From NCBI GenBank assembly GCA_947450025.1, contig CANFTW010000007.1:62001-126000 (forward strand): 64,000 bases of DNA, read 5' to 3'. Below are positions 52,286 through 60,365 of the stretch, one piece after another (position 1 is the stretch's first letter; every line of letters starts with the position of its first letter). The translations under genes and the position numbers were made by a program. This DNA comes from Bacteroidota bacterium. Lineage in GTDB: Bacteria; Bacteroidota; Bacteroidia; B-17B0; Aurantibacillaceae. Below the pieces are notes generated by a model that worked only from the letters and a program-made list of their open reading frames with translations, did no database searches and was not told the origin of the DNA.

Positions 52286-52316
52286 TTTGTGAGTAGTTCA
52301 AAATATCTTATTTTTG
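52286..52316 (+). promoter_or_regulatory. promoter of the LTD-TonB receptor-endonuclease operon
   Basis: TTTG (52286-52289) and TATTTTTG (52309-52316) are exact matches to the -33 and -7 consensus, separated by 19 bases. Transcription would begin near 52322, leaving a leader of about 100 bases before the ATG at 52421. Confidence 0.75.
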
Positions 52317-52321
52317 TTTCG

Positions 52322-52420
52322 CTAAGTAAGTGACCACCCTATAAGAGGAAAACTATTCTGGACTCCGCCTTAAACCGCTTTAAGCAATTAAATAGTAAAA
52401 ACATCTAAAAACATATCAAC
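52322..52420 (+). other. possible structured 5' leader
   Basis: The leader contains a hairpin (CTTAAA, loop CCGC, TTTAAG; 52369-52384) and a possible AGTGACCA/TGGACT pairing (52328-52335 with 52358-52363). It is G/C-richer than nearby intergenic sequence. It matches no riboswitch class that I can recognise by eye. The last 35 bases before the ATG are A-rich and unstructured. Confidence 0.4.
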
Positions 52421-53341
52421 ATGAAAAAAACTTTACTAAGTTTATCATTAATCGCAGTCGCTTTATTAGGTAAAGCACAAAACTGTTCTGAATTATTCAT
52501 TTCTGAATATTTGGAAGGAACACAAAATACAAAAGCTATTGAGATTTACAATCCAACTAATGCTTCGATTAGTTTAAGTAACTATCGATTAGTTCGTTAT
52601 TCTAATGGTTCTTCAACAGGAACGGATAGTACAGATTTCACTCCAACATTATCAATTGCATCATACTCAACATTTGTTATTGCAAATGGAGTTGGAGTTA
52701 CTTCAGCAACAACAGCAACTTCTCCTGCATGTGATCCTGCATTACAGGCTTTAGCTCAACAATTAGATGGTGCTTATCCAACTCCAACTTTTATGAATGG
52801 AGATGATGCCATCGTATTAGTAAGAAAAAACCCATATGCACGAATTGATATTTTTGGTAAAATTGGAGAACTTCCTGCAACTGCATGGAGTGATGTTGCT
52901 CCATATGATGGTACTGTAGGTAAATGGTGGACAAAAGATCATTCTTTACAAAGAAAATCTTCTGTAAAACAAGGGGTAACTGCAAATCCAGCTCAATTTA
53001 ATGTTACTTTAGAGTGGGATTCTTTACCTAGAAACAATATGACTAATATTGGTATTCACTCTTGTGCTTGTTCAATTCCAGCAGGTGTAAAAGAAAATTC
53101 TAAAGCTATCTATTTATCAATTTATCCTAATCCATCAAACGGATCTGAAATTGCTTTTGTAAGTAATGATGTGATAAAAGACATTACAATTATTAATGCA
53201 GTTGGGCAAGTTGTGTACTCACATACTTCTACTTCTGAAAACACGGTTATTGTTAAAAATTTAACTGTATCAAAAGGGATGTATTATGCAATCGTTAAAA
53301 ATAATACAGGAACTAAAACTGAAAAAATAATTATTCAATAA
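52421..53341 (+). CDS. secreted lamin-tail-domain protein with T9SS type A sorting domain
   Basis: The protein has 306 residues and a signal peptide (LSLIAVALLGKAQ) at 1-19. The LTD occupies about 20-200: ELFISEYLEGTQNTKAIEIYNPTNASISL, given here by its ends ELFISEYLEG and AIEIYNPT, with MNGDDAIVLVRK later. A type A sorting domain occupies 225-306 (IYPNPSNGSEIAF, GQVVYSH, KGMYYAIVKN). In many secreted bacterial proteins LTDs are fused to nucleases. Here the LTD stands alone, two genes upstream of a secreted endonuclease I, and may act as its surface partner. It is the first gene after the promoter at 52286. Confidence 0.88.
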   Translation: MKKTLLSLSLIAVALLGKAQNCSELFISEYLEGTQNTKAIEIYNPTNASISLSNYRLVRYSNGSSTGTDSTDFTPTLSIASYSTFVIANGVGVTSATTATSPACDPALQALAQQLDGAYPTPTFMNGDDAIVLVRKNPYARIDIFGKIGELPATAWSDVAPYDGTVGKWWTKDHSLQRKSSVKQGVTANPAQFNVTLEWDSLPRNNMTNIGIHSCACSIPAGVKENSKAIYLSIYPNPSNGSEIAFVSNDVIKDITIINAVGQVVYSHTSTSENTVIVKNLTVSKGMYYAIVKNNTGTKTEKIIIQ

Positions 53342-53404
53342 TTTTAAATTCAATAATCATATTATTAGGGCTGATGAAATACTCAGCCCTTTACATTTAA
53401 ACGT

Positions 53405-56137
53405 ATGTTGAAAAAAGGGTTAATATTTGTATTTCTTGTAAGTACTTTCATTTTTAAGGCTCAAGATAGTTCTAAGGTTATTTTATCTGGGTCTATTAAA
53501 GATTCCGAAACAGGCGAGGCGCTAATTGGCGCAACCATTATGGTGAAAGCTGGCGTTGGAACTGCGGCAGATTTAGATGGTAATTATAGCATTAAAGTCC
53601 CTAAAGGTGAATATACTGTTGAATTATCGATGCTAGGATACAGAAAATATACTCAAAAAATAAAGCTGTATTCAAATAAAAAATTAGATGTTAAATTAGA
53701 AAATACAGTTTTAGATGAAATTGAAATTATAGCAGACGTTGCCCAAATTAGAGAAACGCCTGTTGCTTTTAGTTCAATTTCTGCTCAAAAAATCCAGGAA
53801 GAGTTAGGGGGAAAAGATATTAGTATGATTGCTAATATTACTCCTGGCGCTTATGCCTCTAGTAGTGGAGGTGGAGCTGGCGATTCTCGAGTAACCATTC
53901 GTGGATTTGATCAAACTAATATTGGGGTATTGGTTGATGGAATTCCTGTTAATGATATGGAAAATGGTCAAGTATATTGGAGTAATTGGGAAGGCTTGAA
54001 AGATATTACAAAAAGTTCTCAAATTCAACGTGGTTTAGGAGCATCAAAATTAGCGATCTCATCTGTAGGTGGTACCATGAATTTTATTACGAATGGTATC
54101 GAAGGAAAGCAACAAACTGTGATAAAAAAAGAATGGGGTAATAATAATCGTAATTTAGTAAGTTTATCCTATAATTCAGGATTAATCAATAATAAATGGG
54201 GGATTACATTAGCTGGAACTTATCAAACTAGTGATGGTTGGGTTGAAAAAACATGGAATAATGCCTATTCTTATTTTGCGAAAATACAGTATATGCCTAA
54301 CCCAAGACATATTATTAGCTTTGGTGTAAATGGAGCACCTCAATCTCATGGTCAGCGAACATCTAAAATGCCAATTGCTGTTTATGATAGAAAATTGGCC
54401 GATAAATTAGGCGTTAATTCGGATTCGGTTATTAGAAGTATTCAATCTAGTGGAATTAAATATACAACCTTAACTCAAGGTGATCGAAGTTTGCAATGGA
54501 ATCCTGATCAAGGTTTGTTAAATGGAGCAACCTTAAATGATAAAGTAAACTATTTTCATAAACCATTATTTAGCGTCAACCATTTTTGGAAGATGACTGA
54601 AAAAACAACCTTGTCAACGGTTTTATATGCGTCTTTTGGAAATGGCGGTGGTACTAGTTATTCTCCTACTCTTAGTAATCGAGATTCGGTAACTGGGTAT
54701 TATTTAGTTCAATCAAAATATGATGCAAATGCCACCTTTATTGATAACACCATCAGCACAACTGAAACTAAATCAACGACTATTTTAAGATCTAGTAATA
54801 ATAATCATAAATGGGTTGGATTATTATCTACAGCTACTACAAAATTAAATAAGCTGTTTACCTTAACCTATGGTATTGATTTAAGGTATTATAGAGGATA
54901 TCATAATACAACGGTTTATAATTTATTAGGCGGTGATTATTATGTTGAGGGTGGGTCAAGTAAAAATCCGAATTTAGACCCGAACAATAAAAGTAATTTC
55001 GTGAAACGAGAGGGAGATATTTTTGGTTCAAACTATAATGGAATTGTAAAATGGGCAGGGTTATTTGGACAAGCAGAATTTAAAAAAGATAAATGGACAG
55101 CCTTTATTACAGCTACTGGGTCTTATTCTGGGTATAATCGTGTTGATTATTACAAAAAGAAAGATTTAGTTTTAGCGGATACAACTTATCATAACTATGT
55201 TGGCTACAGCACTGTGGTTGTTCATAATGGTGTTACTTATGATTTTAATTCGGCTGAAGTTCAAACAGCAACTACAGGTTGGAAATACCAAATAGGCTAC
55301 ACCATTAAAGGTGGTGCAAACTACAACATAAATGACCATCATAATGCTTTTCTAAATGTTGGTATTATGCAAATCCCACAAAAATTTGCGAATGTTTTTA
55401 CATTTAGTAATGAAGTAGCTAAAGATTTTAAACCACAACATATTAAATCATTTGAATTAGGTTATGGCTTAAGATATAATAAGTTTGTAGGAAATATTAA
55501 TGCTTATTATACCTCTTGGGAAAATCAGCCACAAAGCACGATTACAGGTTTAGATGGAGAAACCTATAATATTAATGGTGTTAATCTATTATTTAGAGGA
55601 GTTGAATTCGAAGGTATTTATAAATTATCAAAACAATTAGAGATTGAAGCAATTGCTTCTTATGGAGATTGGATTTATAATTCAGGAGGAATTGTTTATG
55701 CCTATGACCAAAATGGAATTATTCAAAACACATTAGAGTATCATGCACAAGGAGTTCATGTTGGTAATGCGGCTCAAATGCAAGCGGGTGGAGCTATCAG
55801 AATTATGCCTTTTAAAGGTTTTTACTTTAAACCAAGATATACTTATTTTGATAAATACTATGCTAATTTTAAACCAACAGATTTGGATGCAAGTCATGCT
55901 AATCAAGAGAGTTGGAAAATGCCAGGTTTTGGATTATATGATTTAAGTGCAGGATATAAAATCCCTTTCAATATTTTCGAAATCAATATTTACGCTACCG
56001 TTAACAACGTATTCAATAAACGATATATTAATGATGCTCAAAATAATCAGTACGGGGGAGGGTTTAATGCAACTTCCGCTGGTGTATTCTTTGGAGCAGG
56101 AAGAACATTTATTTTCGGAACTAAACTAACTTTCTAA
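53405..56137 (+). CDS. TonB-dependent receptor with carboxypeptidase-like N-terminal domain
   Basis: The 910 residues include a signal peptide (FVFLVSTFIFKAQ) at 1-19, a CarboxypepD_reg-like domain at about 25-105 (GSIKDSETGEALIGATIMVK) and a plug domain at about 115-225 (VTIRGFDQTNIGVLVDGIPV). A 22-strand barrel follows, ending in an aromatic residue (IFGTKLTF). There is no neighbouring SusD gene, so it resembles siderophore- or small-ligand-type receptors rather than a glycan SusC. It is 63 bases downstream of the LTD gene and 21 bases upstream of the endonuclease frame, which suggests import of products released by the nuclease. Confidence 0.93.
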   Translation: MLKKGLIFVFLVSTFIFKAQDSSKVILSGSIKDSETGEALIGATIMVKAGVGTAADLDGNYSIKVPKGEYTVELSMLGYRKYTQKIKLYSNKKLDVKLENTVLDEIEIIADVAQIRETPVAFSSISAQKIQEELGGKDISMIANITPGAYASSSGGGAGDSRVTIRGFDQTNIGVLVDGIPVNDMENGQVYWSNWEGLKDITKSSQIQRGLGASKLAISSVGGTMNFITNGIEGKQQTVIKKEWGNNNRNLVSLSYNSGLINNKWGITLAGTYQTSDGWVEKTWNNAYSYFAKIQYMPNPRHIISFGVNGAPQSHGQRTSKMPIAVYDRKLADKLGVNSDSVIRSIQSSGIKYTTLTQGDRSLQWNPDQGLLNGATLNDKVNYFHKPLFSVNHFWKMTEKTTLSTVLYASFGNGGGTSYSPTLSNRDSVTGYYLVQSKYDANATFIDNTISTTETKSTTILRSSNNNHKWVGLLSTATTKLNKLFTLTYGIDLRYYRGYHNTTVYNLLGGDYYVEGGSSKNPNLDPNNKSNFVKREGDIFGSNYNGIVKWAGLFGQAEFKKDKWTAFITATGSYSGYNRVDYYKKKDLVLADTTYHNYVGYSTVVVHNGVTYDFNSAEVQTATTGWKYQIGYTIKGGANYNINDHHNAFLNVGIMQIPQKFANVFTFSNEVAKDFKPQHIKSFELGYGLRYNKFVGNINAYYTSWENQPQSTITGLDGETYNINGVNLLFRGVEFEGIYKLSKQLEIEAIASYGDWIYNSGGIVYAYDQNGIIQNTLEYHAQGVHVGNAAQMQAGGAIRIMPFKGFYFKPRYTYFDKYYANFKPTDLDASHANQESWKMPGFGLYDLSAGYKIPFNIFEINIYATVNNVFNKRYINDAQNNQYGGGFNATSAGVFFGAGRTFIFGTKLTF

Positions 56138-56191
56138 TCAATCGAATTAATTAAAACTATGAGCCTAATTAATAACCATAAATCAATCAAC

Positions 56192-58516
56192 ATGAAAAAA
56201 ATTAAATTATTTGCAGCCTTATTAGGACTAAGTATTGCAAATGTTCAAGCGCAATGTCCTCTTCCAACAGGGGAGTCTTTTGAGACTTTTACTTCAGCTT
56301 CAAGCTTTACCGCTAATGCTTTATATTCCGGAAGTTGGACATCTAATATTGGAGGGACATTTACATATGCAACTGGACAAGTTGGATTAGCAAGTCGAAT
56401 AGATATCGCAAATGAATATGTGCAAGTAAATACAAATGATGCGATGGGTGTTGTGAGTTATTACTTAAAAGGATGGACCACTAGTAGCGCTCCTTGGTCA
56501 GGTACGTTTAAACTTCAAGAATCTGTAAATGGAACAACATGGACGGACATAACGGTTCTTACTAATAATTTAAATGTTAATTCTTATATTAATTATACAG
56601 TTACTCCAAATGCAAATTCTCGTTATTTAAAATGGATACTTACTACAAAAGTATCTGGAAGTAATGTTGGCTTAGATGAGATTAACATCGCAGCAGCACC
56701 TATAACAGCGCAAGAAATCAACGTGAAACAAGCAGGAAATACAATTTTAACTGGTGGTAATTCTTCATTGTTTAATTCTGCTGTTGGAACTCCAACAACG
56801 GTGGCGTTCACGATTGAAAATTTAGGAAGTGTATCTTCTTTAAATATTAATTCATTTTCTTTAACTGGACCAGCAGCAGCAGATTTTACTGTAACGGCTC
56901 CTACAGGGCCTTCAACAATTAATCCATCTTCAAACGTGCCTTTGACGTTGTCATTTAATCCAAGTGCAGCAGGAACTCGTTCTGCAGTTTTAACCATTAA
57001 TAATAATGATGCTAATGAAGGTGCTTATGTGATTAATTTAAATGGTATTGGTGGAAATTTAGCTTCTCAGCCTTCTACACAAGCTACTAATTTAAATTTC
57101 TCTAACATTAAATCTTATAGAGCAGCGGCTAGTTTTAACGCAGCATCAGTAGCTCCATCTGGATATTTAATTCTTAAAAAACAATCTGCTACGGCTATTA
57201 CGGATGTTCCTGTTGATGGTGTAGCGTATCAAATTGGTGATGCAATTGGAGGTAGTAAAGTTATTTATTCTGGAAATGCAACTAATATTGGTATTAGTAA
57301 TGTTTATGCAGGATTACCTTATGAGTTAGCAATTTTTTCTTATAATGGTTCTGGTTCTTTTACAAATTATTTAACAACTAGTCCTTTAACTGCAGGTTTT
57401 ACTGCTTTAGCAACGATGCAACCCGTATCAGAGTATAGTTCATTAAACGTTACTAATCCTAATTTCTTAACATCTTTATCGGCTCAAATCTATCCTCACA
57501 CTTCATTGTTTTATAGTAATTATGATGAAACAATGATTAAATTATTTACGGCTCGCGATACAACCGCTGGTAAAAAAGTAGTGACATGTGTTTATAGTAG
57601 TGAAAATTATGTTTATACAGAACCGTTTGATTGGTCATATATGAGCCGTGAGCATAGCTACTGTCATCAATGGATGCCTACAAATCCTGCAGATGGAACA
57701 GGGGCGGCTCCAAATAATGTGGAAAGAAAAGAATATAATGATCAACATCATTTATTCCCAACTAACCAAAATGATGTGAATGCAGTGCGCAGTAATTATC
57801 CTATGGGTGAAGTAACTACAGTTCAAAGTACATTTATAAATTCAAAACGTGGACAAAACGCTTTAGGACAAACTGTTTTTGAGCCAAGAGCATCTCACAA
57901 AGGAGATTGGGCTCGTGCTGTGATGTATTTAGCAACAGCTTATAATGGACAAACCGATGCGTATGGTGTTGCTCAAAATTGGAAATTTAAAAATCCGATT
58001 AGTGCAACAATTGGGTATGGTCAAGATCAAAATATTATTAAGAAATGGCATTTCCAAGATTTACCAGATGCTTATGAGATTTCTCGTAACGACTTTTTAG
58101 ATTCATTACAAGGCAATCGTAATCCATTTGTTGATAGTATTCGTTATGCTTGTTATATTGATTTTAGCAACATGACTTATATTGCAAGTCCTACTTATAC
58201 TACTGGAACTAATTTTCCATGTTATGTAGCCTCAACAGTTGGTGTAAAAGAAAATGCAGCATCTCATTTTGAGTATGTGTTAGCACCTAATCCTACTTCA
58301 GGTGATTTCTATTTATTAATTGATGCAACAGTTGCTGAGACCTTTAATTTAAAAATTACTGATATTTCTGGAAGAGTAGTGTATGCCAGAAGTGTTGATG
58401 TAGCAAATGGATTTAATAATATTACCGTTAATGATTTAAAGTTAACAGGTGGTGTTTATTTTGTAAATCTTACCTATAATAATGAAAAAATTACTCGTAA
58501 ATTAATTATACAATAA
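56192..58516 (+). CDS. T9SS-secreted endonuclease I family nuclease
   Basis: The start is at 56192 (MKKIKLFAALLGLSIANVQAQ; 774 residues). An ATG 11 codons earlier would place a polar segment before the signal peptide. Residues 25-170 form a jelly-roll module. Residues 175-290 form a choice-of-anchor/HYDIN-like beta domain (NPSAAGTRSAVLTINNND). About 430-650 is the endonuclease I domain: DWSYMSREHSYCHQWMP, NDQHHLFPTNQNDVNAVRS, FEPRASHKGDWARAVMYLAT. The His and the Asn-Asp-Val-Asn and GDWAR segments match the secreted nonspecific nuclease family. A type A sorting domain occupies 690-774 (YVLAPNPTSGDFYLLI). It should degrade extracellular DNA and RNA. Confidence 0.93.
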   Translation: MKKIKLFAALLGLSIANVQAQCPLPTGESFETFTSASSFTANALYSGSWTSNIGGTFTYATGQVGLASRIDIANEYVQVNTNDAMGVVSYYLKGWTTSSAPWSGTFKLQESVNGTTWTDITVLTNNLNVNSYINYTVTPNANSRYLKWILTTKVSGSNVGLDEINIAAAPITAQEINVKQAGNTILTGGNSSLFNSAVGTPTTVAFTIENLGSVSSLNINSFSLTGPAAADFTVTAPTGPSTINPSSNVPLTLSFNPSAAGTRSAVLTINNNDANEGAYVINLNGIGGNLASQPSTQATNLNFSNIKSYRAAASFNAASVAPSGYLILKKQSATAITDVPVDGVAYQIGDAIGGSKVIYSGNATNIGISNVYAGLPYELAIFSYNGSGSFTNYLTTSPLTAGFTALATMQPVSEYSSLNVTNPNFLTSLSAQIYPHTSLFYSNYDETMIKLFTARDTTAGKKVVTCVYSSENYVYTEPFDWSYMSREHSYCHQWMPTNPADGTGAAPNNVERKEYNDQHHLFPTNQNDVNAVRSNYPMGEVTTVQSTFINSKRGQNALGQTVFEPRASHKGDWARAVMYLATAYNGQTDAYGVAQNWKFKNPISATIGYGQDQNIIKKWHFQDLPDAYEISRNDFLDSLQGNRNPFVDSIRYACYIDFSNMTYIASPTYTTGTNFPCYVASTVGVKENAASHFEYVLAPNPTSGDFYLLIDATVAETFNLKITDISGRVVYARSVDVANGFNNITVNDLKLTGGVYFVNLTYNNEKITRKLIIQ

Positions 58517-58536
58517 GTTATTGATTAATTTTAAAG

Positions 58537-58565
58537 AAAAGGCTACCCTCTAGGTAGCCTTTTTT
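58537..58565 (+). terminator. terminator of the nuclease operon
   Basis: AAAAGGCTACC pairs with GGTAGCCTTTT over a CTCTA loop, with a T-run after, 21 bases past the endonuclease stop. Confidence 0.9.
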
Positions 58566-59837: not shown

Positions 59838-60365
59838 CTAATACTGTGCTAGACATGTGATATTATTTGAGTGTTTATATAATTTTTCTTTACCGTTTAA
59901 AAATTCTAATCCTACAACAAAGTTAAAGCCACAAACGTTGGCGCCTTGTTGGGTTACTAAATGCGCTGCTGCATCTGCTGTTCCACCAGTAGCTAATAAA
60001 TCATCATGGATTAATACATTCCATCCTTTTTGTAAGCTATCAAGATGCATTTCTATTTTTGCAGTTCCATATTCTAATTCATATTCATAGCTAATAGTTT
60101 TATATGGTAATTTACCAGCTTTGCGAACCAAAACAAATGGAATGTTAAGTTTGTTTGCAATCAGTAATCCAAATAAAAAACCTCTGCTTTCAATACCAAT
60201 AATGGCATCAGGTTTAACATCCATTCTTTCAATAAAACCATTCACAATATCATTACATAACGCCTGATTTTCAAAAATAGGTGTTATGTCTTTAAACATA
60301 ATGCCTGGTTTTGGGAAATCAGGAATATCTCTGATGCTTGCTTTTATATTGGTTTCTAAAGACAT
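59838..60365 (-). CDS. apt: adenine phosphoribosyltransferase
   Basis: The 175 residues match Apt throughout. The N-terminal SIRDIPDFPKPGIMFKDITP is diagnostic, with IGIESRGFLFG and the KAGKLPYKTISYEYELEYG hood. The PRPP loop is VLIHDDLLATGGTADAAA. It salvages adenine to AMP. It ends 14 bases before the preferred start of the acyl-CoA dehydrogenase gene. A candidate -7 element TAAGTTTG lies 14 bases upstream of the start. Confidence 0.97.
   Translation of the reverse strand: MSLETNIKASIRDIPDFPKPGIMFKDITPIFENQALCNDIVNGFIERMDVKPDAIIGIESRGFLFGLLIANKLNIPFVLVRKAGKLPYKTISYEYELEYGTAKIEMHLDSLQKGWNVLIHDDLLATGGTADAAAHLVTQQGANVCGFNFVVGLEFLNGKEKLYKHSNNITCLAQY

Follow-up and report, generated by a model that had tools for sequence, protein, structure and literature searches.

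The DNA analyzed here (the window) is a 64,000-nt stretch of the Bacteroidota bacterium assembly GCA_947450025.1 (family Aurantibacillaceae; contig CANFTW010000007.1, positions 62,001 to 126,000 of the forward strand). The subject of this computational analysis is a plus-strand operon encoding a lamin-tail domain (LTD) protein, a TonB-dependent receptor and a secreted endonuclease I. A Bacteroidota-type promoter, TTTG-N19-TATTTTTG, assigned from the sequence and from an alignment of upstream regions, occupies positions 52286–52316, with TTTG at 52286–52289, a 19-nt spacer, and TATTTTTG at 52309–52316; the –7 box TAnnTTTG is present in all 15 aligned upstream regions, and the strict two-box pattern, in seven of them. 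The promoter is followed by a structured leader RNA (52321–52389), the gene of the LTD protein with a C-terminal type IX secretion system (T9SS) signal (52421–53341), an intergenic hairpin (53367–53390), the receptor gene (53405–56137), the gene of endonuclease I with a choice-of-anchor D domain and a T9SS signal (56192–58516), and an intrinsic terminator, called as a terminator-like hairpin, at 58535–58565. The promoter, the three genes and the final terminator had been listed in an earlier note on this DNA, and all of them are found in place, while neither the leader RNA nor the internal hairpin was mentioned there.

The LTD protein has an LTD domain match (7.8e-15) and a Por_Secre_tail match (4.2e-8) in Pfam; its N-terminal part also resembles the NCBIfam model of ExeM, NF033680 (6.7e-18, 64 bits, far below the cut-off of 1300), and its predicted structure, with the predicted local distance difference test score (pLDDT) of 57.1, is too poor for a fold search. 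The nuclease, assigned with Pfam, NCBIfam and conserved residues, matches Endonuclease_1 (PF04231; 1.3e-27, 97.5 bits, above the curated cut-off of 25) and Por_Secre_tail (3e-11). Hence both proteins are predicted T9SS cargo with C-terminal sorting domains, in agreement with the earlier claim of T9SS signals. The nuclease open reading frame (ORF) was called as 56159–58516, and its start is probably at 56192, as orthologs begin at this MKK. Residues R486, H488, D517, H519, N530 and R533–N535 are retained in all 16 nuclease orthologs and, presumably, have catalytic roles. The receptor contains the CarbopepD_reg_2 and Plug domains (Pfam), and no SusD partner that would make it part of a SusCD or polysaccharide utilization locus is present among the eight neighbor proteins scanned with Pfam, as had been proposed. 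The receptor profile gives only partial matches to solved TonB receptors (the best one is 9gbc_A, 6e-17). Among the 50 matches listed for the receptor model, the nearest are monomeric small-solute receptors, Fiu, PqqU and FhuA (FhuA/PqqU/FecA-type), and not SusC; the listed matches include siderophore, pyrroloquinoline quinone (PQQ) and copper receptors and do not define the ligand. The modeled small-solute-type fold is consistent with a receptor lacking SusD, and names no ligand.

The long nuclease (about 770 aa) is present in 17 of 20 genomes of the genus, this genome included. Around long nucleases of the same family, the order and strand of the LTD, receptor and nuclease genes are kept in 15 of 20 loci, the other five reaching a contig end, and in two loci of genus g5 (L040 and L041) the operon is retained amid different flanking genes. 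A scan of public genomes yielded 306 relatives of the nuclease, of which the best 80, chiefly from metagenome-assembled genomes of Bacteroidota (Flavobacteriales, Crocinitomicaceae and Fluviicola included), were kept for locus counts. The three-gene set is complete in 63 of these 80, ten are truncated at a contig end close by, and one (L065) is incomplete, as its sequence begins inside the receptor gene. These family and public-genome counts rule out an order limited to one strain, and sequence comparison indicates that it is kept across genera and families beyond chance. A small lipocalin-like lipoprotein is encoded between the receptor and the nuclease in some relatives (L032:8045–8488, L046:2849–3298, L125:9470–9922), and a second, compact endonuclease I (about 360 aa) is common in the same family beside the long one (L002–L031).

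Comparison of upstream regions revealed strong conservation from the –7 box to the start of the LTD gene, and the first 60 nt or so of the mRNA form a covarying structured leader. Its consensus comprises stem P1, the 5′ internal-loop strand GAACACCCUA, a variable hairpin P2, the 3′ strand (C)CGAAACC, and P1′. In the window, the P1 arms are at 52326–52331 (5′) and 52377–52382 (3′), with four of six P1 columns pairing in this copy. The window leader matches covariance model R1, built on 22 LTD-operon leaders and used to find further copies, with E 3.7e-9, being itself a training row, and model R2 with E 5e-8 in a search of its own genome. As RNAalifold alone gave no consensus structure for the leader alignment (A5), the stems were assigned manually before pairing was counted, a procedure that can flatter them; in the 22 leaders 74% of pair cells are standard vs. 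34–50% when slid. In 95 rows, picked by a model that rewards pairing, the 15-pair structure is 68.9% paired with double changes in 13 pairs, and the covariation is 0.315 vs. 0.182 after shuffling (standard deviation 0.009), with the observed value reached in 0 of 500 shuffles. An arm test using the loop sequences only (the pattern script including L283 and L284) is independent of the model, with relatedness among sequences not removed, and for 76 distinct arm pairs yields 5.76 of 8 paired vs. 5.16 when permuted (standard deviation 0.10, maximum 5.54 in 2000). P1 is absent from the minimum-energy fold of the window leader taken alone.

A conserved structured 5′ leader with covarying stems, the feature looked for in a riboswitch, is therefore present. 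For six leader-bearing stretches, Rfam 15 covariance models produced nothing beyond weak, chance-like matches, and a link to any known riboswitch was discarded for this reason; a hammerhead-like reading of the GAAAC loop was dropped, as the third stem is absent. Crocinitomicaceae-type operons have a variant leader (ten rows, 96.3% paired, double changes in four pairs), identified in 124 of 240 Crocinitomicaceae-type family genomes at E ≤0.1, with the LTD gene downstream on the same strand in 29 of 30 loci returned, the thirtieth locus ending first; one locus, L109, is matched by both leader models. We consider the leader a candidate new class of regulatory RNA, apparently undescribed.

The LTD ORF is preceded by at least 300 nt of sequence in 53 complete operons: the leader models match 39 of these and miss 13, and the remaining one (L060) was not searched, its sequence being equal to L059. 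Among 145 listed leader matches, including some repeats of one genome, TAnnTTTG is found at most 45 nt upstream in 97 (vs. 6.9 expected from shuffles), and a same-strand ORF of at least 100 aa lies within 420 nt downstream of 139, with the median distance of 29 nt; therefore, the leader motif forms the 5′ end of mRNAs. At E 0.5, 32 of 60 relatives have leader copies; a search of 395 genomes of the class at E 0.01 finds them in 38. There are five tandem leaders in relatives (six adjacent pairs are listed, L090 and L424 being judged one place). This genome has three copies, in the window operon and ahead of two large T9SS surface proteins (G000:C3:214060–214125, L317, and G000:C5:75505–75583, L318). 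The latter two genes encode an LTD-like “NEVSNG” protein with CHU_C and a List_Bact repeat protein.

Leader-headed operons include both surface-protein and nucleoside genes. LTD is found in 46 of 127 distinct first genes behind the leader, the receptor plug, in six, phospholipase D (PLD), in three, and DeoC, in two; Por_Secre_tail is present in 76, and CHU_C, in 47 of 120 complete first genes (the overlap not being resolved). Cases with nucleoside genes come from two other families of the sample. Genomes G395 and G489 have the leader ahead of deoC, two aldehyde dehydrogenase ORFs (in G489 assigned by resemblance, not scanned), nupC and cdd; these nucleoside catabolism operons are at L329:1491–12410 and L406:8576–14391, and a thymidine phosphorylase gene lies nearby in L329. 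Another copy in G395 heads a surface-protein gene followed by thymidine phosphorylase, and in G615 and G595 the leader heads a large secreted protein, then nupC and cdd; a short way upstream of this copy lies a leader-LTD-receptor pair. In further genomes, the leader heads operons of a receptor and, behind it, DUF5689 lipoproteins (scanned in L346 and L407, others by resemblance).

Nucleic-acid genes are also associated with the three-gene operon itself. Directly behind the nuclease, 16 of the 80 loci encode a lipoprotein with the 5′-nucleotidase C-terminal domain, at a spacing of 0–5 nt (–34 nt in L089, where the nucleotidase start is called too early), and in 13 of these 16 the next gene encodes a calcineurin-like metallophosphatase; together, the two domains look like a split UshA-type enzyme. 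Thus, the earlier claim that no phosphatase is adjacent holds for the window, and fails in these 16 relatives. The same five-gene order is seen in another family (G127/L263), where the nuclease bears a DUF5689 domain. A secreted PLD-type phosphodiesterase is inserted into the operon in L035 and L043, and L405 has an LTD-receptor-PLD arrangement. More distant, sister receptors adjoin type I phosphodiesterase/nucleotide pyrophosphatase genes in six of 18 loci. This genome encodes a split 5′-nucleotidase elsewhere and one NupC. In the phylum, endonuclease I is present in 100 of 296 sampled genomes; 19 of the 69 such loci examined have a single ORF for LTD and endonuclease I, and excerpts of a study of Flavobacterium johnsoniae describe induction of such fusions, Fjoh_4721 and Fjoh_4723, upon phosphate depletion (PMC8115612), an analogy that is the one pointer to a phosphate-starvation (Pus/PHO) system here. 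At L230:3261–9661, in a distant family, endonuclease I adjoins a receptor of the operon kind.

Instead of the single terminator described before, the operon has a second terminator-like hairpin, at 53367–53390, an attenuator candidate. A strong hairpin is found at the matching place in the window and in all 12 relatives inspected; in more distant relatives its sequence differs and the structure is kept. As this conserved hairpin sits 3′ of the LTD gene, transcription is probably not uniform past this gene, and the hairpin may lower the level of receptor and nuclease mRNA relative to LTD mRNA. Convergent to the operon and just downstream of its final terminator is an adenine phosphoribosyltransferase-like gene (59838–60365); such a gene adjoins the operon also in L039, L047 and L049.

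We believe that the locus is probably a conserved module for scavenging of extracellular nucleic acids. This interpretation, advanced in the earlier note, gains support from the conserved gene order and from the 5′-nucleotidase and PLD associations, which independently point to nucleic acids, as well as from the LTD-endonuclease I fusions, the F. johnsoniae ones being phosphate-induced. One receptor family and one leader are repeatedly accompanied by genes for a nuclease, a nucleotidase, a phosphodiesterase, and for uptake and catabolism of nucleosides; a nucleic-acid scavenging regulon is the simplest account. In the proposed mechanism, T9SS would place the LTD protein and the nuclease at the surface or outside the cell. 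The LTD protein may bind DNA or present it to the nuclease, as both are one polypeptide in other Bacteroidota, and the nuclease would cut DNA or RNA to oligonucleotides or nucleotides. These, we infer, are the molecules that the receptor imports, pulling them into the periplasm with TonB energy; the UshA-like split 5′-nucleotidase, adjacent in some relatives and encoded elsewhere in this genome, would free phosphate, and NupC-type carriers would take up nucleosides. The hairpin 3′ of the LTD gene would result in more LTD mRNA than receptor mRNA. Through a small molecule or a protein that it binds, the leader probably places the operon under common control with a few further operons of surface proteins.

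Several observations weigh against this reading. Six of the 80 relatives (L071, L076, L079, L097, L123, L130) lack the LTD and receptor genes despite available sequence, no 5′-nucleotidase or transporter gene adjoins the window operon, and among the 69 phylum loci of endonuclease I such a receptor is adjacent in one only (L230; 30 loci are short). The predicted receptor structure is of moderate confidence (pLDDT 67.8), and ExeM functions without its LTD, if less well, according to the accessible part of its description (PMC6085458).

The leader could act either as a riboswitch or through protein binding, in a regulon of nucleic-acid and surface-protein genes. In the most specific version, the leader, often in one copy and at times in tandem, makes up a riboswitch class of its own: on sensing a nucleoside, nucleotide or nucleobase, it would turn on a regulon, T9SS surface proteins included, by which Bacteroidota capture, cut, import and catabolize extracellular DNA, with the SusD-less receptor as a TonB-driven (oligo)nucleotide importer; we offer this version tentatively and regard it as rather doubtful. 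A serious competitor, with a chance not far below even, is that the leader is a general mRNA element of T9SS cargo (for stability, secretion feedback or protein binding), having no link to nucleosides, and that the nuclease operon is merely one cargo operon. The frequency of sorting domains given above and the many adhesin-like first genes without nuclease domains fit this explanation, whereas the non-secreted products of the deoC–aldehyde dehydrogenase–nupC–cdd operons, the first gene of the receptor-DUF5689 operons, which is not T9SS cargo, and the share of LTD among first genes do not. A broader role of the leader in surface proteins is possible, since many leader-bearing T9SS proteins have no known nucleic-acid link.

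Two further alternatives concern the receptor. The operon could serve natural transformation, with DNA or oligonucleotides crossing the outer membrane by way of the receptor and being trimmed by the nuclease, and the occurrence of the leader before receptor-DUF5689(-DUF5017) operons agrees with that. In Riemerella, natural transformation strictly requires a barrel with a carboxypeptidase regulatory domain and a neighboring DUF5689/DUF5017 protein (excerpts of PMC8459023), and tonB mutants transform poorly, an effect that the excerpted source itself partly ascribes to iron (PMC8383284). Still, Pfam identifies no DUF5689 gene in the window operon, and the nuclease here together with the 5′-nucleotidases in relatives fits feeding better, which makes this explanation improbable. 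We give similarly little credence to the idea that biofilm DNA, motility or competitors are the target of the nuclease and the LTD protein while the receptor imports an unrelated solute such as iron or a cofactor. It is compatible with the siderophore, PQQ and copper receptors among the fold matches, but conflicts with the tight conservation of the receptor between LTD and nuclease, with the 5′-nucleotidases behind the nuclease in relatives, and with the nucleotide pyrophosphatases adjoining sister receptors.

Extracellular DNA is a large pool of phosphorus, nitrogen and carbon. The literature searched does not settle by which route nucleic-acid fragments pass the outer membrane of Bacteroidota, and the operon supplies a concrete candidate for such an importer, together with a nuclease as its conserved partner. 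Should the leader RNA be confirmed, it would represent a new class of regulatory RNA. The genes behind it allow a direct test of a nucleic-acid-derived signal, and a set of T9SS surface proteins whose role is unknown would then be assigned to this response as well.

No description of the LTD-receptor-endonuclease I operon or of the leader RNA was found in the open-licence literature searched, and the known systems resemble the locus in part. F. johnsoniae EndA1 and EndA2 (Fjoh_4721 and Fjoh_4723) share with it a secreted endonuclease I and LTD; in the available excerpts (PMC8115612) each is one fused protein, called orphan, whereas in the window separate LTD and nuclease genes surround a TonB receptor. 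Shewanella ExeM likewise ties LTD to an extracellular nuclease, but, as far as the accessible text describes it (PMC6085458), is a single protein with an endonuclease/exonuclease/phosphatase (EEP) nuclease, and not a separate LTD protein and endonuclease I. In the phosphate utilization systems (PusCD) of Flavobacterium, a TonB transporter is likewise co-localized with phosphoesterases; Pus loci have SusD-like proteins, and the window operon has none. DNA-degradation loci of Ca. Izemoplasmatales combine an LTD nuclease protein, nucleoside transporters and nucleosidases, and the available passages (PMC8289736) mention neither a TonB receptor nor T9SS, whereas the window operon encodes a TonB receptor and proteins with T9SS signals. 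Finally, in partial descriptions of Riemerella RA0C_RS04915/RS04920, a barrel with a carboxypeptidase regulatory domain adjoins a surface DUF5689 protein, a pair that the window operon lacks; receptor-DUF5689 pairs of similar make-up carry the leader RNA in some relatives.

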